Below are positions 1-42,863 of a DNA stretch of 64,000 nucleotides, piece by piece. The DNA comes from Blattabacteriaceae bacterium (GTDB lineage: Bacteria; Bacteroidota; Bacteroidia; Flavobacteriales; Blattabacteriaceae). The notes under the pieces are model-generated. The model was not told the DNA's origin, ran no database searches, and worked only from the letters and a program-made list of their open reading frames with translations. Location: contig DASWCM010000003.1 in NCBI GenBank assembly GCA_036390115.1, positions 1 to 64,000 on the forward strand, written 5' to 3'. A program made the translations under genes and the position numbers. Numbering within the stretch: position 1 is the stretch's first letter; each line of letters starts with the position of its first letter.

Positions 1-600
1 AAGGAATTATAGAAAAAAAAAAAAAACTGAAAGGAACATTGAACAGTAAATATAAACAGCGTTCAATGTGCATGACTAGAAATATCCATCGCAAAATAAA
101 TACAAATGTATGATAAATAAAAATTGGAAACAAAAACCAAGAAAAATAAATACTTAAGCCATAAAGGCCCCTAAAAAAAATTTTAGTAAAAGCTAGAATA
201 CTCCTAAAATAAAAATAAATTATTCTATATAATAGATTAAATCTATTATAAAGTATTTACGCTCTAATTTTTAGAGTTTAAATAAAAACTTTTTTTCCAT
301 ATATTCTTTGATAAAGATGAAGCTCCTCAATAAATTTATAAGCTAAATACCAAGAATTATTTTTTGTTCATAAAAAACAGACATTAAATAACTATTTAAT
401 AGTTCCAATTTTAGAAAAAAATTGGAACTCTTCCAATAAGTCCAAGTATAATTGGATCATTTTTCATGGGGAGAATTCTAAAATATTACCATGAAAAATC
501 ATAGATACGATATTCATTCTTTCAGAAAAATAAAGAATTTTATGCTCCATATAATCTCTCTGAGATGGAGCTTTTAAAGATCTTTTGCAGATCTAATTTT
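1..600. other. Gene-free region rich in inverted repeats
   Basis: I recognise no gene here. A short open frame from the window edge stops at TAA 47-49 and may be the tail of a plus-strand gene. The stretch holds many perfect inverted repeats: 36-44/61-69 (9 bp), 171-176/181-186, 228-237/241-250 (10 bp), 401-412/418-429 (12 bp), 459-469/489-499 (11 bp), 516-522/532-538, 544-550/565-571 (followed by TTTT) and 578-583/589-594. Some may be terminators, but most lack a T-tract. It may be decayed coding DNA with hairpins, or a structured element. Confidence 0.45.
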
Positions 601-3267: not shown

Positions 3268-4566
3268 ATGAATTTTATTGCAGTTATAGTTGGTCGTTCA
3301 AATGTAGGAAAATCAAGTTTATTCAATAGAATAATTGGCCATAATAAATCTATTGTGAATGAAAAAAGTGGTGTAACAAGAGATAGAGATTATGGATTTT
3401 CTGAATGGAACGGTATAAGCTTTATCATCGTGGATACAGGAGGATATACTCTTAGTAAAGAAATTATAGAAAAAAAAATAAAAAAACAAGTGTATCTGGC
3501 AATTGAAGAGGCAGATATAATTTTATTTGTTGTAGATATTATGGATGGACTAACAAATCTAGATTTAGAAATAGCTAAATTACTTAGAAAATCTAAAAAA
3601 CAAGTATTTTTAATAATCAATAAAGTAGATTCTAAAAAATATATTTACCATTCACTTGAATTTCAGAAATTAGGATTCAGTAATTATTTTTGTATATCAT
3701 CATTAAACGGCTGGGGTACAGGCGATTTTCTCGATAAGCTAACAAAAATATTTTCAAAAATTTCTAAAAGAGAAACAAAATATTTAAAAAAATTTGCTAT
3801 AGTTGGTCGCCCAAATGTAGGAAAATCTACAATTATTAACACTTTTTTAGGGGAAGAAAGAGCTCTAATTACGAATAGTTCTGGAACTACTAGAAATAGC
3901 ATTGATACATTTTATCAAAAATTTGGAATTGAATGTGTTTTAACAGATACGGCAGGTATTAGAAAAAATTCAAAAATAAACGAAGATTTAGAATTTTATT
4001 CTATTCTTAGAACGATAAGGGCGATAGAACGATCCACTGTTTGTTTATTGGTAATTGATGCTGTTAGTGGATGGGAAAAACAAGATATGAATATTCTTAG
4101 AATTCTTAAAAAGAACGGAAAAGGATTTATTGTTATTGTTAATAAATGGGATTTGATTGAAAAAATAGAAAAAAAAAAAAATGAAAAAAAAATAAAAGAA
4201 AAAATCTCCTATTTTGAGGATATTCCTATCTTTTTTTTTTCAGCTTTCTCTAAAGAGAAGAAGGAGATATTAAAAATAATGGAAGAATTAATGAGAATTA
4301 ATGAAAATTGTAAAAGAAAGATAAAAACAAAAGTTTTAAATGATTTGTTTTTACCGATTATTTTCAATAATCCTCCTCCAAAAGTTAATGGAAAACAAAT
4401 TAAAGTAAAATATTGTACTCAATTCTCCAAAATGAGATTTGTTTTTATTTCTAATAATCCAAAATATGTTAAAGATTCCTATAAGAGATTCTTAGAAAAT
4501 AAATTACGGGGGTATTTCAGTTTTTTAAAAGGGATTCCTATTAATATTTATTTTAAAAATGCGTGA
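3268..4566 (+). CDS. der: Ribosome-assembly GTPase Der (EngA)
   Basis: This 432-residue protein has the double GTPase layout unique to Der/EngA, which acts in 50S subunit assembly. The first P-loop is GRSNVGKSS (residues 9-17) with DTGG at 56-59 and NKVD at 118-121. The second P-loop is GRPNVGKST (180-188) with DTAG and NKWD further on. The C-terminal KH-like domain is present (KVKYCTQFSKMRFVFISN). Length matches the family. The ATG at 3268 gives the standard N-terminus directly before the first P-loop. The next gene, now dead, started inside its stop codon. Confidence 0.95.
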   Translation: MNFIAVIVGRSNVGKSSLFNRIIGHNKSIVNEKSGVTRDRDYGFSEWNGISFIIVDTGGYTLSKEIIEKKIKKQVYLAIEEADIILFVVDIMDGLTNLDLEIAKLLRKSKKQVFLIINKVDSKKYIYHSLEFQKLGFSNYFCISSLNGWGTGDFLDKLTKIFSKISKRETKYLKKFAIVGRPNVGKSTIINTFLGEERALITNSSGTTRNSIDTFYQKFGIECVLTDTAGIRKNSKINEDLEFYSILRTIRAIERSTVCLLVIDAVSGWEKQDMNILRILKKNGKGFIVIVNKWDLIEKIEKKKNEKKIKEKISYFEDIPIFFFSAFSKEKKEILKIMEELMRINENCKRKIKTKVLNDLFLPIIFNNPPPKVNGKQIKVKYCTQFSKMRFVFISNNPKYVKDSYKRFLENKLRGYFSFLKGIPINIYFKNA

Positions 4567-5520
4567 AAAAACCTGTTTTCATTGTGGGTGTAATCTTCTT
4601 AAATAAGAAAGAAATTTCTAAAATTTTGCAGTATCATAAACTTAATAAGTTTTATGAGCTTAATGCTCATACAGGTATGATTACTAATAAAAAAAAAAAA
4701 ATAATATAAATATATTTTATTTATTTTTCGAAAAAATTATAGAAAACTGGTTGATTTTGAAACGATAAAATTACTTTGATTAGATTATCTGTTACATCAA
4801 TCCATTGTAGTTCCTGTATATGGATTATTGAAAGTTTACCCAAACTCCATACTGGAATTATACAATCAACGGTAAATTTTACAACCAAAAAGATCTGTGT
4901 TCTTTTCAATAAGAAAGAACTACCATTAAGCAAATTAGCTTATTTTCTTAGGAAACTTGGTTATACTCCAAATTTTAATGAAAAATCAATATATAATTCT
5001 ATAAAAAACTGATCTATCAAATAGATTTTTATTTTTTTTTTCCTTGTAAATATTATGCTATTAGCTATCCCTGAATATATAGGATATGGAGATAAATGGC
5101 TAATCGAAAACAAATATTTTTTTAGAATATTAATGTTAATCCTATCTTTTCCAGTACTATTTTTTTATTATGCAAATTATTTCCAATCAGCATACTTTAC
5201 TTTTAAAAATAAATGTATCAATATTGATTTTCCAATTTGTTTAGGAATAATAACAATTTTCTGGCTAAGTATATACGATATAACCTATAATTTAGGTACA
5301 GGCTATTTAGATAGTTTAACTGGTTAGTTTTTTTTTCTAGGAAAATTTTTAAAAAAAACTTATCAAGATTTAGATAAATATTAAAATTTTTTTTTATTCA
5401 ATATCTATTCTTGGGCTTAGAGAAGGTATTGAAGAAAATATTTTTCTTTATTCTCTAATAACGGTAGTAAAAATAATCCAACAATGATAGTAGCTACAGG
5501 CCAGCTATGTTTATTTTATA
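4559..5520 (+). pseudogene. ccoI: Decayed copper-transporting P-type ATPase CcoI/FixI
   Basis: An ATG at 4559 overlapping the der stop gives MREKTCFHCGCNLL, the Cys-rich start of CcoI/FixI, and then breaks. A second frame (4776-5012) keeps the metal-binding domain with SIHCSSCIWIIESL. A third (5055-5327) keeps transmembrane segments with SIP-like AIPEYIGYGDKW and the motif GTGYLDSLTG. A last fragment near 5400-5460 (SILGLREGIEENIFLYSLI) fits the start of the actuator domain. The phosphorylation and ATP-binding domains are absent. CcoI supplies copper to cbb3-type cytochrome oxidase, so its loss fits loss of that oxidase. Confidence 0.82.
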
Positions 5521-5528
5521 AAAGATAA

Positions 5529-6775
5529 ATGAACCAAAAATTACAAAAAGAAGCTTTAGAATATAATGAAAAATTTACATCTGGGAAAATACAGATTTCT
5601 CCAACAAAGTAGTATGGTAGTCAAAAAGAATTATCTCTTGCTTCCTCTACAGGCGTTGCTATTCATTGGAAATAGCAAAAAATATGAATAATATTTATAA
5701 ATACACAGCTAAAGTAATCGCTGTAATTTATAACGTAACAGCTGTATTAGGCCTAAACCTGTAATGTAAGGAAAGGGTTTATTATTCAAAATCTTCGCTG
5801 GTATTGATGTTTTCGATATATAAATTAATGATAGAGATACAGAAAAATTTGTACAAGTAATAAAAGCTATATCACCTACTTTTGGTGTAATAAATCTTGA
5901 AGATATTAAAGCTCCAGAAGCTTTTAAAATTGAAGAAAAACTAAAGAATGATATTGATATACCAATCATCCATTCCGACCAACATGGAACAGCAACAATC
6001 TCTGGGGCAGCGTTAATAAATTCTTTGGAATTGACAAATAGAAACATAAAAAATGTGAAAATGTCATTAATGGAGCAGGTGCTGCTGCAATAGCTTGTGC
6101 TAGAATTTATTAAAAACTTGGGAAAACATTATTATGTTATATAGCAAAGGGCAAAGTTCCAGAAAAGACTTAACCAAAGAAAAGCAATAATTCGCAGTTG
6201 ATGCGTCTCTAAAAACCTTAGAATAAGCAATTAAAGGAGCAGATATTTTTTCTGTTTCTCTTACAGTAAAGATGCTTTTGAAGATGTCTGAAAATCCTAT
6301 TGTTTTTGCTTGCGCTAATCCTTCTCCTGAAATAGAATATGAATTAGCTGTTAAAACAAGACAGATATAATCCCAGCAACAGGGCGTAGTGATTATCCCA
6401 ATCAAGTGAATAACGTATTCGCATTTCCTTATCTATTTAGAGTAGCTTTAGATGTTCATGCTAAGAAAATTAACGAAGCAATGAAACTTGCTGCCATCCA
6501 ATCTCTCGCTTCTCTAGCTAAAGAATCTGTTACAAATAAAGCAAAAGTTGCTTATAATAAGAATCTTTTGCTTTATTACAAATAAAGCAAAAGTTGCTTA
6601 TAATAAGAATCTTTTCTTTGGAAAAGAATATATTATACCCAAACCACTTGATACCCGTTTGATAACAATGTTACTGCAGATACTGCTTTAGCTGCTATAA
6701 AATCTAAAGTAGCTCCCTATTCTAGATTGGAAGGCATACGAAGCTCAACTTAGTAAAAGAGTAAGTTTTTGACTT
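5529..6775 (+). pseudogene. maeB: Decayed NAD(P)-dependent malic enzyme
   Basis: The start at 5529 reads MNQKLQKEALEYNEKFTSGK then PTK, a stop, and LSLASSTGVAIHW, matching the malic enzyme N-terminus. Later pieces include FAGIDVFDI, SPTFGVINLEDIKAPE and PIIHSDQHGTA, the core malic-enzyme motif (usual form HDDQHGTA). Near 6300 comes FACANPSPEIEYELA, then [17 protein letters not shown]. Frames shift repeatedly and several stops interrupt it. The phosphotransacetylase-like C-terminal domain of MaeB is missing. A 46-bp tandem duplication lies inside it. The enzyme converted malate to pyruvate. Confidence 0.83.
6530..6621 (+). repeat. 46-bp-period tandem duplication inside maeB remnant
   Basis: Bases 6530-6569 and 6576-6615 are an identical 40-bp sequence starting TTACAAATAAAGC, spaced by 6 bases, giving a period of 46. 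The identity suggests a recent slippage or recombination event after the gene died, since 46 is not a multiple of three. Confidence 0.9.
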
Positions 6776-6776
6776 A

Positions 6777-7973
6777 ATGAAAAAAATAAAAATTTTTGAT
6801 ACTACTTTACGAGATGGAGAACAGATTCCTGGGTGTAAATTAAATACCTACGAAAAAATTCGAATAGCTCAACAACTAGAATTTTTAGGAGTGGATATTA
6901 TAGAAGCTGGGTTTCCTATTTCTAGTCCAGGTGATTTTAAATCTGTAGAAGAAATTTGTAAAAATATTACAAAACCAGTAATATGTGCGCTTACTCGAGC
7001 AAAAAAGAAAGATATAGAAGTTGCTGCTTCTGCTCTAAAAAAGGCTATAAATCCAAGAATCCATACAGGAATAGGAACATCTAATTGGCACATAAAATAC
7101 AAATTCAATAGCACCCCAGGTGATATTCTGGAAAGAGCTATTGGAGCTATTAAGTATGCTAAGAGCTTTGTTGAAGATGTAGAATTTTACGCAGAGGATG
7201 CGGGTAGAACAGAAAATGAATTTCTTGCTAAAGTTTGCGAATTAGCTATTAAAGCTGGTTCTACCGTATTAAATATACCAGATACAACAGGATATTGTCT
7301 TCCTGAAGAGTATGGAGAAAAAATACGATTTTTAAAAGAAAATGTTAAAGGAATTCATAGAGTAACCATTTCCACGCATTGTCATAATGACCTTGGGGTA
7401 GCTACTGCAAATTCCTTGTATGGAATAATTAATGGAGCTGATCAAATTGAATGTACAATTAACGGAATAGGAGAGAGAGCAGGAAATACAGATTTAGGAG
7501 AAATCGTAATGATAATGAAACAACATAACCATTTAGGTTTTTCCACTAATATTAATACAAAATTTATATTTCCAACAAGTAAACTGATCTGTAAGTACAC
7601 AGGAATTTATGTACAAGCTAATAAAGCTATTGTTGGAAGAAATGCTTTTTCTCATTCATCTGGGATTCACCAAGATGGTGTTCTTAAAAAACGGGAAACT
7701 TACGAAGTTATAAATCCTAAAGAAGTAGGTGTTGAAAAATCTTCCATAATATTAACGGCTAGAAGTGGCCGTGCTGCATTAGCTTATCGATGTAGAAAAC
7801 TTGGATATTTTACCCAAAAAAAAGATTTGGATAATCTTTACTCTCTTTTTCTTAAAGAAGCTGATAATAAAAAAGAAATTTCGGATAAAGATCTTATAAA
7901 GATGATAAAAAAAATACCGTTGACATCTCTGAATCTGAAAAAGATTAAAAGTTATGGGAAAAACACTTTTTGA
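6777..7973 (+). CDS. leuA: 2-isopropylmalate synthase
   Basis: LeuA condenses 2-oxoisovalerate with acetyl-CoA, the first committed step of leucine synthesis. The 398-residue protein begins with the [12 protein letters not shown] signature (residues 8-19) and has the metal-binding STHCHNDLG motif and the GIGERAGN loop in the TIM barrel. It is shorter than enterobacterial LeuA (about 520) because there is no C-terminal allosteric leucine-binding domain; short forms also occur in free-living Bacteroidota. It heads a leuA-leuC-leuD-leuB cluster with overlapping genes. Being first and apparently feedback-free fits overproduction for a host, which is inference. Confidence 0.94.
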
Positions 7974-9381: not shown

Positions 9382-9919
9382 GAGTACGGCTGTACCTATA
9401 CCTATAGAAAATATTGATACAGATCAAATTATACCTGCAAGATTTTTAAAAAATACTTCTAAAGAAGGGTTTGGAAAAAATCTTTTTCGAGATTGGCGTT
9501 TTAATCCTGACTTTGTATTAAATAATTCCCTTTATGGAGGGAAAATTCTAATTTCTGGAAGAAATTTAGGATGTGGCTCAAGCCGAGAACATGCAATTTG
9601 GGCTATCCTTGATTATGGATTTAGAGTAGTTATTTCAAGTGTTTTTGCAGACATTTTTAAAGAAAATGCTCTAAATAATGGTCTTCTTACAATAGAGATT
9701 TCTGAAATTTTTTTAAAAAATATTTTTGAAACTGTTATTAAATATCCAAAATCCATTATTTCCGTTGATTTGGAAAATCAAAATGTTTTTTTAGAAAATC
9801 ATACAGAAAAATTTAATATAAATTACTACAAGAAAACTTGTTTTATTGTAGGATATGAAGATATAGAATATTTAGCAAATCTTAAAAAAGAAGTTGATTT
9901 TTTTGAAAATTTCAAATAA
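9359..9919 (+). CDS. leuD: 3-isopropylmalate dehydratase, small subunit
   Basis: This 186-residue protein is the swivelling domain of isopropylmalate isomerase. Visible motifs are NIDTDQIIPARFLK near the N-terminus and GRNLGCGSSREHA in the middle, both diagnostic of LeuD. It overlaps leuC by 23 bp and leuB by one base (TAATG), consistent with one transcript and coupled translation. No sign of erosion. Confidence 0.95.
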   Translation: MEKFRLLRSTAVPIPIENIDTDQIIPARFLKNTSKEGFGKNLFRDWRFNPDFVLNNSLYGGKILISGRNLGCGSSREHAIWAILDYGFRVVISSVFADIFKENALNNGLLTIEISEIFLKNIFETVIKYPKSIISVDLENQNVFLENHTEKFNINYYKKTCFIVGYEDIEYLANLKKEVDFFENFK

Positions 9920-10974
9920 TGGAAAAAAATATTGCTGTTCTAGCGGGAGATGGAATAGGTCCAGAAGTAATCAAACAAGCACGTAAAGTTTTAAATGCTA
10001 TTGAAAAAAAATTTGGTCATACTTTCAAATATCTTGAAGGTTTTGTAGGTGCATCTGCTATAGATGAAACTGGAGATCCCTTACCTACAGCAACTTTAGA
10101 TATTTGCTCAAAATCAGATGCTATTATTTTTGGTACGATAGGTAATCCTAAATATGACGATAATCCCAAAGCAAAGGTAAGACCTGAAGAAGGATTACTC
10201 AGGCTAAGAAAAATAATGGGATTATACTGTAATATAAGACCCATAAAAGTTTATCCCTCTATGCCTCCACTTAGAAAGATTCAGACTTATGGAAATATTG
10301 ATTTTGTCATATATAGAGAATTAACTAGTGGCATCTACTTTGGAAAAAAGGGACGATCCATTGATGGACATGTAGCTTACGATCATTGCGTCTACTCTGT
10401 AAGAGAAATTGAACGAATAGGACGAGCAGCATTCGAAGCTGGACTAAAAAGACGTAAAAAACTTACTTTAATTGATAAAGCAAATGTGTTAGAAACCTCT
10501 AGGTTATGGAGAGAAACTATAAAAAAAATGAGCAAAAATTATCGTCAAATCCAGTTGGATTTTCTATTTATCGATAATGCTGCTATGCAACTTATTATAA
10601 ATCCTGAAAGGTTTGATGTAATTTTAACGGAAAATATGTTTGGAGATATTTTATCAGATGAAGCTAGTCTTATAGGGGGATCCATTGGGCTTTTACCATC
10701 TGCATCTATAGGGGAAAAAGTCTCCCTGTTTGAACCTATACACGGATCATACCCTCAAGCTGCAGGGAAAAATATCGCAAATCCTATAGCTAGTATACTT
10801 TCTGTAGCAATGATGCTGGATCATTTTGGGCTTTTTAAAGAAGGGAAAGAAATATACAAGTCAGTAAAATATTCTATTGACAAAAAAATGGTAACTAAAG
10901 ATATTGAAGCTTCCTCACCTCTAGGAACTGAGGAAGTTGGAGACTTCATTACAGAATGTATTTTACAAAATTAA
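9919..10974 (+). CDS. leuB: 3-isopropylmalate dehydrogenase
   Basis: LeuB oxidatively decarboxylates 3-isopropylmalate with NAD+ to give the leucine keto acid. The 351-residue protein shows LAGDGIGPEV at the N-terminus, the substrate Arg region RELTSGIYFG, and the family signature NMFGDILSDEASLIGGSIG followed by LLPSASIG and the HGSYPQAAG nucleotide-binding loop. Length is normal. It ends the leu cluster. No amino-transferase for the last step is visible here. Confidence 0.95.
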   Translation: MEKNIAVLAGDGIGPEVIKQARKVLNAIEKKFGHTFKYLEGFVGASAIDETGDPLPTATLDICSKSDAIIFGTIGNPKYDDNPKAKVRPEEGLLRLRKIMGLYCNIRPIKVYPSMPPLRKIQTYGNIDFVIYRELTSGIYFGKKGRSIDGHVAYDHCVYSVREIERIGRAAFEAGLKRRKKLTLIDKANVLETSRLWRETIKKMSKNYRQIQLDFLFIDNAAMQLIINPERFDVILTENMFGDILSDEASLIGGSIGLLPSASIGEKVSLFEPIHGSYPQAAGKNIANPIASILSVAMMLDHFGLFKEGKEIYKSVKYSIDKKMVTKDIEASSPLGTEEVGDFITECILQN

Positions 10975-10984
10975 AAAACTTAAA

Positions 10985-11905
10985 ATGCTTAGCCAAAAGG
11001 GAAAATTATTGGACCTGTAATTGATGTAATCTTTGAAAAGACTTCATTTATTCCTAAAATTTATGAAGCCCTAGAAGTTTAGGGTTTTTACGGTAAAAAA
11101 CTTCCTATGGAAAGCACATTGTGTAATGTGCATATCTATGGATTATACTGACTATATGGAAGGTTGTGATGGATCTAAGTAACGAGTAACGCAAAATTAG
11201 AATAACTTTACCCCACAAAATAGGTGGAATAAAGGTTATTGATTTTATAACCCTTATAGTGTGTGGAGCTGGACGGTTTACATTTCTGTATTTGCTGGAG
11301 TTGGAGAAAGAACTAGAGAAGGAAATGATTTACTCCGTGAAATGATTGAATCAGGAGATGAATTAATAAAATACCTGAAAAAAGGTAAATGGGCAAAGTA
11401 GATCAAGATGCCTTGAAAAAATCTAAAGCAACTTTTGTTTTTGGCCTTCTGTAGCCAGAGCTCGTGTAGTTTTATCTGGATTAACCCTTGCAGAATATTT
11501 TAGATACTGTAAAAAAAAATAAAGGAATAGACGTGCTTTTCTTTATCGATAACATTTTTCGTTTTACTCAAGCTGGTTATCCTTCAGCTGTTGGCTATAA
11601 ACCCACACTAGCATCTTAAATGGGCCATTACATCTGTACAAGCAATTTACGTTCCTGCTAATGCTACAACATTTTCTCATCTTGATGCAACAACTGTACT
11701 TTCTCTCTTCTTTGGGAATTTATCCTTCACTCTAGACTCATCTTAAAGAATTCTCAGCCCTGAATGTGCGACGTGTAAAAGAAGTTCTACAAAGTATAAA
11801 AACTTGCAGTATATCATTGCTGGTGAAGGAAGTAACTGTACTACTGTATGTTTAGTGGAGTTAGGCATTGTATCGATATTAATAAAATATTTATTTACAT
11901 AACTG
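10985..11905 (+). pseudogene. atpD: Decayed ATP synthase F1 beta subunit
   Basis: The N-terminus survives as KGKIIGPVIDVIFEKTSF and PKIYEALEV, then stops appear. Further on are [19 protein letters not shown] (about 11275-11330), [42 protein letters not shown] and VRRVKEVLQ/YKNLQYIIA, all beta-subunit motifs but in different frames. The catalytic P-loop is cut: sequence goes from CGAG almost directly to the [12 protein letters not shown] motif, so about 20 residues with the Walker lysine are deleted. The C-terminus is lost. This gene cannot make a working beta subunit. Confidence 0.9.
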
Positions 11906-11989
11906 TGTATAATCTGGTTTAAATTTAAAACTTTATTCCACATAATGGAGAAAAAATATCCAGTAAATGCTGGACTCTTTATATTTATT

Positions 11990-12200
11990 AGTGATAAATT
12001 TAGAACGTTCTAGGGAGTGTGAATCTATTGAGTCCATACTAAAAATAGTAGTGATACTGGGATCAGTCACGATTAATGGAGTTAGCCTAACTGGATAATA
12101 AAAAAATTTTTTTTTAGTGTAGTTGTTATTCCATATACTTCTGAAAAAAGAGGAGTTAATTTGGAATTTGATATTATTGTAAAGTACATCTTAATACAGA
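11990..12200 (+). pseudogene. ribE: Decayed riboflavin synthase alpha chain, C-terminal remnant
   Basis: Fragments read NLERSRECES, then GSVTINGVSLTG (about 12055-12093) and FFSVVVIPYTSEKRGVNLEF followed by DIIVKYI. These match the second lumazine-binding barrel of riboflavin synthase (family pattern KGSITINGxSLTV, IPYT, VNLEFDxxxKY). Stops follow SLTG, and the N-terminal barrel is gone. Riboflavin synthase joins two lumazine molecules to form riboflavin. The preceding enzyme, RibH, is also dead in this window. Confidence 0.75.
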
Positions 12201-12204
12201 CAGT

Positions 12205-12456
12205 ATGAATAACATAGAATCAAGAGTAAAGGATATTTTAGCAAAAAAATTAGGAATTGATGAACTTCCCCTAGAAAGTTCTCTAATAAAAGATTTAGGT
12301 CTAGATTCTTTAGACTATATAGAATTAATTATGACTCTTGAAGAAGAGTTTCATATTAAAATTTCTGACGAATATGTGGAATCTATCTTTAGGATAAAGG
12401 ATATTGTATTTTATGTGAATAGTCTTATTAAGAAAGATTTAAAATGCCCCATTTAA
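12205..12456 (+). CDS. acpP: Acyl carrier protein
   Basis: This 83-residue acidic protein is an acyl carrier protein. The phosphopantetheine attachment motif is DLGLDSLDYIEL with the modified serine at residue 35. The four-helix length is normal. It overlaps fabF by 13 bp, the standard acpP-fabF arrangement, which supports its role in fatty-acid synthesis. It follows the dead ribE directly, so the promoter may lie within the pseudogene. Confidence 0.95.
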   Translation: MNNIESRVKDILAKKLGIDELPLESSLIKDLGLDSLDYIELIMTLEEEFHIKISDEYVESIFRIKDIVFYVNSLIKKDLKCPI

Positions 12457-24485: not shown

Positions 24486-24529
24486 AATTAACAACTTTTA
24501 AAATAAAAAATTATTCCATTTTATTAGAG

Positions 24530-25110
24530 CCATATATGGAAACTATTCCTAAAGTCAAAGTAATAATTTTTTTTACTAAAAACCCTTTATCCAGAAACAC
24601 TTTCTCTATATGAGATATATGCGAAAAAGAAAATATTGAACGTTGTAAGTAATAGTAAACAATTTTGTCACAGAGATATAAATTTTAGGGTAAAAGGTAT
24701 ATAAATATTTTAGAATCTTTCTTTTTGGTTTGGAAAACTCCACCCACTCTATGAATTTCTTTGAAACAAAGATCTTCGCAAGCCAAAAGACACTGGAACT
24801 GCGTAAAAAAAATTACTTTAAAAAAGCATAGTCCCTTTAACATTTTTATACGATTCTCTAATTTTAGAGTTTTTATTTTTTTTCTTCCTATTTCAAGCAT
24901 TCCATCAGAAATATCGTGACCTATAACATCTAGTCCCTTTATTATTTTAACTTCCTGTTCCATATGCTAAATCCAATACTTTTTTGGATAAAAAAGAATA
25001 AATAACAGAGACTACTTTCTTACGCCATGTAAAAGAAGCTCCAAAAGAAAGAATAAATACGATCAAACATTTTTGAAATTTGACTATTTTTATAAATATT
25101 CATAATTTAT
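24530..25110 (-). pseudogene. menG: Decayed demethylmenaquinone methyltransferase
   Basis: Minus-strand fragments in different frames read KMFDRIYSFFW (about 25070), TWRKKVVSVIYSFLSKKVLD plus LAYGTGS (SAM motif), then IGHDISDGMLEIGRKKIKTL, and RVGG(V). These match UbiE/MenG in order. Frameshifts follow the GTG motif, and the middle (FGxRN region) is replaced. MenG methylates the quinone in the last step of menaquinone synthesis. With ccoI and atpD dead too, this fits loss of respiration. Confidence 0.78.
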
Positions 25111-34106: not shown

Positions 34107-34741
34107 TACTTAATATAGAAACTTCCACAAAAAATTGTTCTGTAAGTATTTCTAAAGACGGAAACTGCATTAGTCTTTTTGAGACTAAAAACTATTCTCA
34201 TTCCGAGAATCTACATGTTTTTATCAAAAAATCTTTGAAAGAAGCAAGAATAAAATTCTCCAATTTAAACGCTCTCTGCGTTAGTAAAGGTCCTGGATCC
34301 TATACTGGTTTAAGAATAGGAGTAGCTTCAGCTAAAGGTATTTGTTACGTATTGAATATTCCTCTGCTATCAATAGATACTCTTACTGTAATTAGTAAAG
34401 AAATGAATCCTTCATCTGGGTTTTTGATCCCTATGATTGATGCTAATAGTAAAGAAGTTTATACAACCGTATTTGATTCATTTGGTAAAATGCTTTTTCC
34501 CATAAAGGCTATTATATTAAATAATAATTCTTATAAAGAATATTCCAATAAAAAAATTCATATAATAGGAGATGGAGCATTCAAAGCTTTGAATGTTTTA
34601 AAGCTGGACTTTGAATATCATCCTAATATACTCCCCTCAGCTAAGAATATGGGAGAAATCTCTGATATACTTTTTCAGCAGAAAAAAAATGAAAATATTT
34701 TATTCTTTGAACCATTTTATTTTAAAAAAATAGACCATTAA
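34097..34741 (+). CDS. tsaB: tRNA threonylcarbamoyladenosine biosynthesis protein TsaB
   Basis: TsaB is the non-catalytic partner that stabilises TsaD in t6A synthesis. The 214-residue protein has the ASKHA-fold start ILNIETSTKNCSVSI, the motif SKGPGSYTGLRIGVASAKG and PMIDANSKEVYT. Length is normal. The start lies inside the end of sufE. Both tsaB and tsaD are in this window, which supports a kept t6A pathway. Confidence 0.93.
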   Translation: MAIILNIETSTKNCSVSISKDGNCISLFETKNYSHSENLHVFIKKSLKEARIKFSNLNALCVSKGPGSYTGLRIGVASAKGICYVLNIPLLSIDTLTVISKEMNPSSGFLIPMIDANSKEVYTTVFDSFGKMLFPIKAIILNNNSYKEYSNKKIHIIGDGAFKALNVLKLDFEYHPNILPSAKNMGEISDILFQQKKNENILFFEPFYFKKIDH

Positions 34742-35675
34742 ATGGATACTCATAATATTTCCTCTCAATAAAAAATGGATGACATATTCGATTTTTTAAA
34801 AAAGAGAAAAAATACACTCATAAATAAAAACTCCCAATCCAAATACATCCTACGCAATCATGCCTGATTATGTTATAAATTTATATGTTATGTCCTATAC
34901 ATTGCTTCTAATTAGACCAATAAAAGTAAGGGGGACAAAAATGGTCAGATCTTTGAAGAAAATAAGATACCTCTTATGGAAATATTCCATACAGCATAAA
35001 ATAAATTCCATAAATAAGTCCATAATAAGCTAGTGGAAAACATATATTTAGCTATATAATGCATATAATGACTATTAAAAGTTGACATTTTTTAAATATA
35101 GAGACCATTTTTAAGTATTCATAAATAGATAAAAAATTTTAAAAAAATAAATGTATATTATATAAAAAAAATAATATGGAATTTATAAATTCATTTGTTT
35201 CAGTATGCTAAATAGCATAATCGATAGATTAGGTAATCTCCCTATTATTTTAAGCCTAAAAGCATCTATGATGCTAAAAAAGTGATCATCTATTTTTATC
35301 TTTCTACTTTTATCAGTAAATGCTTTATTGAAAATTATTGGGATTGATATCTATTCATTTTCGATCGCTTGATCTAGCGTTTTGTTTTTTATTTACAATG
35401 AAATGATTTTAGGACTGTAATTTAGTAAAAGTGAACAGGTTTCTGACTGTATCTTTTACTATAACAGGCTCCTTAACTTCTTTGATTTATATGCGATCCC
35501 GTTCCAGTCTGTCTTTTAGCATTGATTTATAACTAATTCTACTTAGCTAGAGAATATTCTGATATTTTCGAAAATATAATAGGAAAAAGTGTATAAAATT
35601 TTTGGAATTGTTTTATTGTCTTTTTATAATTTTTACGTTAAATGTCCATTTAATTTTCTACATTTTCTTTAAAAA
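34742..35675. other. Unidentified gene debris, partly membrane-like
   Basis: No open frame of useful length is present. Short plus-strand pieces such as PDYVINLYVMSYTLLLIRP (about 34870), EFINSFVSV (about 35175) and LLSVNALLKIIGIDIYSFSI (about 35310-35370) look like scattered membrane-protein segments. I could not match them to a family. The stretch is probably one or two dead genes, perhaps of an inner-membrane protein. Confidence 0.4.
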
Positions 35676-41875: not shown

Positions 41876-42460
41876 ATGGATATTAAGAAATTAGTTTTAG
41901 GTATAGGATATTTTCTCTGCATATTACATGCCATTTTGCTTCAAAAAGAAGCAAGGGAAATGCTTTTTTATCCTAGACAACTTTTTATTAAAAACTACAT
42001 AAATAAATCCTATATAGGATTTATTGATATTGTTAATATATTTCCTAAAACTAAATCAGGTAACATTGCTAAATTTTACGCTGGTGTTTGTTCCTATAAA
42101 TTAAGAAAGTATAAAAAAGCAATAAAATTTTTCAAAGCTTTTTCATCTAAAGATAAACTGCTTTCAGCCATAAAATATGGTATTATAGCGGATTCTTTTG
42201 TAGAATTAAAAAAGAACGAAAGAGCGATACAATACTATATTAAAGCAGTTTATAAGAGAAATAATAAATTCACTACTCCATTTTATATTCGTCAAGTTGC
42301 TATTATTTACTTGAGTATAAATAAATATAAAGAATCTAAAAGAAATTTTTATAGAATCATAAATAAATATCCAACTTCTCCTTTTGTAAAAGATATAGAT
42401 ACATATTTATCCATGATAAATAAGATATTACAAATCTATGAAACTAGAAGAGTATTCTAA
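41876..42460 (+). CDS. TPR-repeat membrane-anchored protein (YfgM-like)
   Basis: From the ATG at 41876 the product has 194 residues: a hydrophobic N-terminal anchor (KKLVLGIGYFLCILHAILLQ), then tetratricopeptide-like helices from about residue 70 (KFYAGVCSYKLRKYKKAIKF, then KNERAIQYYIKAVYK and YLSINKYKESKRNFYRII). An upstream extension in frame would run antisense into tmRNA and is unlikely. This resembles the TPR protein that precedes ribH in Flavobacteriia; here the ribH is dead. Function is unproven; YfgM-like chaperone accessory is a guess. Confidence 0.68.
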   Translation: MDIKKLVLGIGYFLCILHAILLQKEAREMLFYPRQLFIKNYINKSYIGFIDIVNIFPKTKSGNIAKFYAGVCSYKLRKYKKAIKFFKAFSSKDKLLSAIKYGIIADSFVELKKNERAIQYYIKAVYKRNNKFTTPFYIRQVAIIYLSINKYKESKRNFYRIINKYPTSPFVKDIDTYLSMINKILQIYETRRVF

Positions 42461-42850
42461 AAAGTTTTTTAAATTTGTAATTATTCTATCTAAATGGAAT
42501 GAATCTGTTACGAGATACCTTTATAAAAATGTTTTTAACACTTTAGTTTATCTTGGATAGTTGGGAGACAACTGGAAGCTTTGAATTAATCTATGCTAGA
42601 GATAAAATATGTAGCAATTCCGAATTGGATTCTCTAATTTTAATCCCTATTAAAGGGGGAAACTGAATATTTTAAGTTCATATGTAAATCTTTATTACAA
42701 GGAATAAAAAATATTAATATTGTATATGAGACTCCTGTAATTCTTTGTATTTTAAACTATGAAAATAAAAAATATAAAAATTGTAAATAGAGGAATTGAA
42801 TCTGCGAAAACAGCCATAAAAATGGCTTGTTTAAAAAACATCTTAAACAA
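42438..42850 (+). pseudogene. ribH: Decayed 6,7-dimethyl-8-ribityllumazine synthase
   Basis: The start at 42438, overlapping the TPR gene, reads KFFKFVIILSKWNESVTRYL and later NVFNTLVYLG. Fragments GETEYFKFICKSLLQGIKNI, ETPVILCIL and NRGIESAKTAIKMACLK follow, which match lumazine synthase in order (SxWN; GET-HF; ETPV-G-LT; RGxEAAxTAIKM). Stops and frame changes break it. RibH makes the lumazine used by riboflavin synthase, which is dead at 12.0 kb. Confidence 0.85.
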
Positions 42851-42863
42851 TTAAAACAAAAAG

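Follow-up and report, generated by a model that had tools for sequence, protein, structure and literature searches.

The decayed ATP synthase locus between leuB and acpP

The window, that is, the whole 64,000-base stretch analyzed, corresponds to C3:1-64000 of a 334,739-base genome assembled into eight contigs. Examination of the region between leuB (9919-10974, forward strand), which is intact, and an equally intact ORF whose function as acyl carrier protein (acpP; 12205-12456, forward strand) was read from its sequence revealed no listed ORF of 80 amino acids. In G052, the sole other genome of the same genus to be compared, the same place is occupied by intact atpD (503 amino acids; TIGR01039, 743 bits), atpC (PF02823) and ribE (TIGR00187). 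Remnants of these genes were measured by global alignment to G052, with the intact leuB and acpP flanks serving as left and right anchors. In this manner, an atpD pseudogene (F1 beta subunit) was delineated at 10985-11821, followed by debris of atpC (F1 epsilon subunit) at 11822-11855 and by a ribE (riboflavin synthase) pseudogene at 11848-12204, all on the forward strand. The preliminary description had atpD run from 10985 to 11905; the start stands but the end overshoots, taking in the atpC debris and part of that of ribE.

Positions 10985-11821 are a dead atpD, identified both by homology and by location, since the remnant is flanked by leuB and acpP, like its G052 counterpart. When G052 AtpD served as tblastn query, positions 10993-11821 were matched piecewise in three different frames, with a full-length reading frame being absent. 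Relative to the G052 gene, 837 of 1512 nucleotides are retained (55%, the other 45% being gone), with 91.5% identity over the retained bases, and 27 deletions, of which 20 are not multiples of 3, were counted alongside no insertions. Only 34 of the 303 nucleotides of atpC (11%) are left, while ribE keeps 62% of its length and has suffered 16 deletions.

The proposal that atpD had lost its P-loop proved essentially right. Thirteen of the 24 nucleotides encoding the Walker A/P-loop motif GGAGVGKT are kept, the VGK codons having been removed by a 10-nucleotide deletion beyond which most of the next stretch of the gene is also missing. Still, this is neither an exact deletion of the P-loop segment nor a specific lesion, because atpD is shredded throughout: the motifs QMNEPS, SEVS, ADDLTDPA and VDP are likewise damaged, with GERTREGN being whole at the DNA level.

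Respiratory and membrane-associated genes across the genome

A second atpD, the existence of which would have overturned the preliminary description, was sought in a search covering all of the genome but 5,755 bp (three contigs shorter than 3 kb, reading as N). The only PF00006 match in this readable genome was Rho. Likewise, E. coli AtpA, AtpB, AtpE, AtpF, AtpH and AtpC found no match in the genome when used as queries, and AtpG matched a single fragment. The second ATP synthase locus of G052, atpB-E-F-H-A-G, corresponds here to C3:128607-130475, where it is decayed, with 41% of the bases of atpB, 29% of atpE, 61% of atpF, none of atpH, 32% of atpA and 73% of atpG being left.

Other gene families were assigned on the intact G052 copies, after which their state in the present genome was measured. 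On the forward strand of the window, a ccoI-type copper P-ATPase pseudogene (4565-5458; 37% left) stands next to the site of ccoNO, which has been wholly deleted (0% of bases left), and is followed by debris of ccoP, encoding cbb3 subunit III (5459-5525; 8% left), and by a malic enzyme pseudogene (5529-6780; 94% left, 12 deletions). On the reverse strand lie a menG/ubiE pseudogene (24511-25103; 84% left) bearing eight deletions, all frame-changing, and the debris of alternative complex III (ActF to ActA; 34738-35194), an 8-kb cluster reduced to less than 0.5 kb, in which 1-3% of ActA-E and 29% of ActF are left. The ccoI and menG genes had already been called dead, at 4.6-5.5 and 24.5-25.1 kb, as is now confirmed. 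The window further contains a ribH (lumazine synthase) pseudogene with three frameshifting deletions (42438-42854, forward strand) and a remnant of a CcsBA-type cytochrome c maturation gene (86-586, reverse strand). The topA/ispB/ccsBA stretch of G052 corresponds to unassembled sequence separating contigs C4 and C3 of the present genome, and those particular absences are unproven.

Elsewhere, 55, 26 and 64% of SdhC, SdhA and SdhB, respectively, 27% of NDH-2 and 79% of MenA are left, the last, like MenG, with many frameshifts. Menaquinone synthesis is absent, with menA and menG, responsible for the last two steps, being broken and polyprenyl diphosphate synthase falling in an assembly gap. Fumarase is broken, as is malic enzyme. 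COX1 (PF00115) was found in G052 but not here, and no CxxCH protein was detected, as compared to four in G052. In the readable genome, functional ATP synthase, terminal oxidase, cytochromes c, complex III, succinate dehydrogenase and NADH dehydrogenase are all absent; the respiratory chain, F1Fo and last two menaquinone steps kept by G052 are deleted or broken at syntenic positions. The earlier expectation that this symbiont cannot perform oxidative phosphorylation is thus upheld, as there is no COX1, no intact F1Fo subunit, succinate dehydrogenase, alternative complex III, NDH-2, menA or menG, and no CxxCH protein. Quinone synthesis, oxidase maturation and ATP synthase, previously described as failing together, have indeed been lost together genome-wide, although the process should be called completed.

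The losses extend to membrane targeting, with Ffh, FtsY, YidC and TatC being broken; HtpG is broken as well. A simple hydropathy count yielded three multi-pass membrane proteins, as compared to 15 in G052, namely, SecY, SecDF and the signal peptidase LepB. As such, Sec is kept, with all three of these proteins intact, and Tat is broken at TatC. SecDF is normally powered by the proton-motive force, and its gene is intact (L014:15703-18339, on contig C6) in a genome left with neither a proton pump nor an ATP synthase, a finding that weighs somewhat against the loss of respiration. Separately, about 10% of the length of argS (C3:160365-160545) and about 9% of that of hisS (C3:204488-204618) remain, such that these two aminoacyl-tRNA synthetases have to be supplied from another source.

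Mode and timing of the decay

The two genomes share 225 reciprocal-best intact orthologues, which are collinear and show a median nucleotide identity of 94.3%. G052 thus resembles the present genome in gene order and sequence, yet differs in that its respiratory chain and F1Fo are whole, with F1Fo, cbb3 oxidase, alternative complex III, succinate dehydrogenase, NDH-2, menA and menG all being retained. Indels were counted using three strict alignment settings, in mutual agreement, in place of gap-cheap parameters. Across 31 pooled pseudogenes (33.9 kb), 401 deletions were seen against 36 insertions (about 11:1), with 54% of bases retained; deletions occur at about 12 per kb, and 69% of those in decayed blocks are not multiples of 3. 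By contrast, intact genes, serving as control, show 0.95 deletions and 0.68 insertions per kb, with 87% of indels being multiples of 3. Decay has therefore proceeded mostly through many small deletions (median 8 nucleotides) and few insertions, together with some kb-sized deletions. Deletion mediated by direct repeats was considered as the main mechanism and rejected, as breakpoint microhomology is near chance (mean 0.94 vs. 0.86 bases); repeats of five or more bases show a small excess (3.4% vs. 1.4%), and this would be at most a minor route.

Two further observations concern the assemblies themselves. In G052, topA (L041:10829-11811, contig C14) comprises only two overlapping partial ORFs, and that genome may be losing topoisomerase I. 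In the present genome, contigs C1 (L002) and C5 (L013, L017), of 19.6 and 33.7 kb, have no G052 homologues and contain a phage-type ATP-dependent DNA ligase, a helicase and pieces of a family-A DNA polymerase. They are probably phage DNA binned in with the symbiont chromosome, which would hence be nearer 275 kb than 335 kb.

Divergence from G052 at codon positions 1, 2 and 3 is 4.5, 2.7 and 10.1% in intact genes and 8.3, 6.2 and 9.9% in pseudogenes, meaning that constraint on the latter has been lost. The share of the branch spent without constraint was obtained by a simple two-rate estimate in which baseline constraint is taken from all intact genes and absolute values are rough. This gave 0.72 (0.50-0.94) for the electron transport chain, 0.61 (0.42-0.80) for ATP synthase, 0.57 (0.28-0.89) for quinone synthesis and 0.35 (0.17-0.55) for membrane targeting. 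The three respiratory groups are indistinguishable in timing, and decay of membrane targeting may have come later. This rough estimate suggests that the lost genes have been unconstrained for some 60% of this genome's own branch since the split from G052.

Loss of oxidative phosphorylation as a module and comparison with other symbionts

Taken together, it is very probable that oxidative phosphorylation disappeared as a module from a highly reduced Bacteroidota endosymbiont of the insect type, with chromosome contigs totaling 275 kb, following its split from G052. An insect host would be in keeping with the size and kinship of the genome. Selection on respiration would have ended once a host or co-symbiont supplied ATP or intermediates, after which drift under a deletion bias would have eroded the respiratory chain, quinone synthesis and ATP synthase and, subsequently, a large part of the membrane-insertion machinery (Ffh, FtsY, YidC, TatC). 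Intact genes were seen for 2-oxoglutarate dehydrogenase and succinyl-CoA synthetase (sucA, sucB, lpd, sucC and sucD), and one predicted substrate-level ATP-forming step hence persists. In tblastn searches, gapA gave a long match and pgk, pyk, ackA and pta gave none; eno is fragmentary both here and in G052. As such, succinyl-CoA synthetase is the sole recognized ATP-forming step. Fed by 2-oxoglutarate dehydrogenase, it would provide what endogenous ATP is left, the remainder being imported, with most ATP presumably coming from the host. A search for an ATP/ADP translocase found none but, as it was run without a positive control, is uninformative alone. It is conceivable, although rather doubtful, that the loss of respiration is compensated by a co-resident respiring sister or a dedicated host ATP supply, in a cell whose only multi-pass inner-membrane proteins are the Sec translocon and peptidase and in which SecDF works without a bacterial proton pump.

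Several other explanations were weighed against modular loss. That the broken genes reflect assembly or sequencing error might be entertained for a draft genome of eight contigs, possibly derived from a metagenome, yet faulty assembly would scatter frameshifts everywhere, whereas the damage is limited to functional modules on two contigs, of 209 and 60 kb, with collinear intact neighbors to either side on the same contig. Because intact genes are almost free of frameshifts, with less than one deletion per kb and mostly in-frame indels, as opposed to the frequent, mostly out-of-frame deletions of pseudogene blocks, such error is very unlikely. Equally improbable is a second intact ATP synthase hidden in the 5.8 kb of masked small contigs: the complete G052 F1Fo set, at about 6.5 kb in two loci, would not fit there, both loci are already present here in decayed form, and the genome-wide family search returned Rho only.

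Rescue of frameshifts by transcriptional slippage or recoding, with the genes still working, was raised as a possibility for homopolymer frameshifts in Walczuchella (PMC3971599), and the AT-rich composition here (window GC 0.287) would be favorable. Deleted codons, however, cannot be restored by slippage; with 45% of atpD and all of atpH and ccoNO physically missing, and 20 frame-changing deletions in atpD, this explanation can practically be dismissed. Lineage splitting, whereby both sisters live in one host and the G052-like, respiring genome supports the other, would fit their collinearity, their 94% identity in intact genes and the almost one-way direction of loss. Still, there is no sign of a shared host and reciprocal losses are minimal, G052 showing no more than about three split ORFs, making this scenario improbable, if marginally less so than error or a hidden copy. 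Modular loss remains the best explanation.

A comparison covering 68 genomes of the family showed neither ATP synthase nor COX1 in the present genome, in G066 and in nine g6 genomes, the g6 genomes also lacking SecY; in G067, COX1 is kept and the PF00006 set is degenerate. In the RpoB tree, the present genome is sister to G052 (100/100), G066 groups with the respiring G053 and the g6 genomes form a separate clade, and respiration has therefore been lost at least three times independently in the family. G066, of genus g8, has neither COX1 nor ATP synthase, its SecY is broken, and it apparently represents a third independent loss. In the same tree, the branch leading to the present genome (0.056) is twice as long as that to G052 (0.028), which suggests faster protein evolution after respiratory loss. 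The value of the case lies in its intact sister and legible pseudogenes: two symbiont genomes in the same gene order, only one of which has the genes to respire, offer a paired natural experiment in which third-codon-position divergence, at some 10%, is low enough for lost genes to be roughly dated and deletions counted. Together with G066 and the g6 genomes, comprising at least three independent module losses in one family, this makes testable which change in host or partner lets a bacterial cell abandon its own energy metabolism.

The type of loss is already known. Candidatus Uzinura diaspidicola, a symbiont of armored scales, lacks ATP synthase, NADH dehydrogenase, cytochrome c, cbb3 oxidase and menaquinone genes (PMC3971599), but its loss is total and encompasses Sec, whereas the present genome has legible pseudogenes and an intact SecY, SecDF and signal peptidase. 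In Candidatus Walczuchella monophlebidarum, also a flavobacterial symbiont with a small genome, the ATP synthase genes are pseudogenes and the conversion of 2-oxoglutarate to succinate is kept, as in the present genome; Walczuchella nonetheless retains NADH dehydrogenase, cbb3 oxidase and cytochromes c (PMC3971599), whereas here the electron transport chain has gone as well. At a guess, the g6 pattern resembles that of Uzinura and the G067 pattern that of Walczuchella (PMC3971599). The two extremes of energy metabolism among tiny symbiont genomes are represented by Karelsulcia, which, in contrast to the present genome, retains atpABCDEFGH (PMC13383532), and Organicella, which is without any ATP generation (PMC8204192), whereas succinyl-CoA synthetase is kept here. 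Relative to the complete loss in Uzinura and the ATP synthase decay in Walczuchella, the case described here is unusually fresh and well paired.
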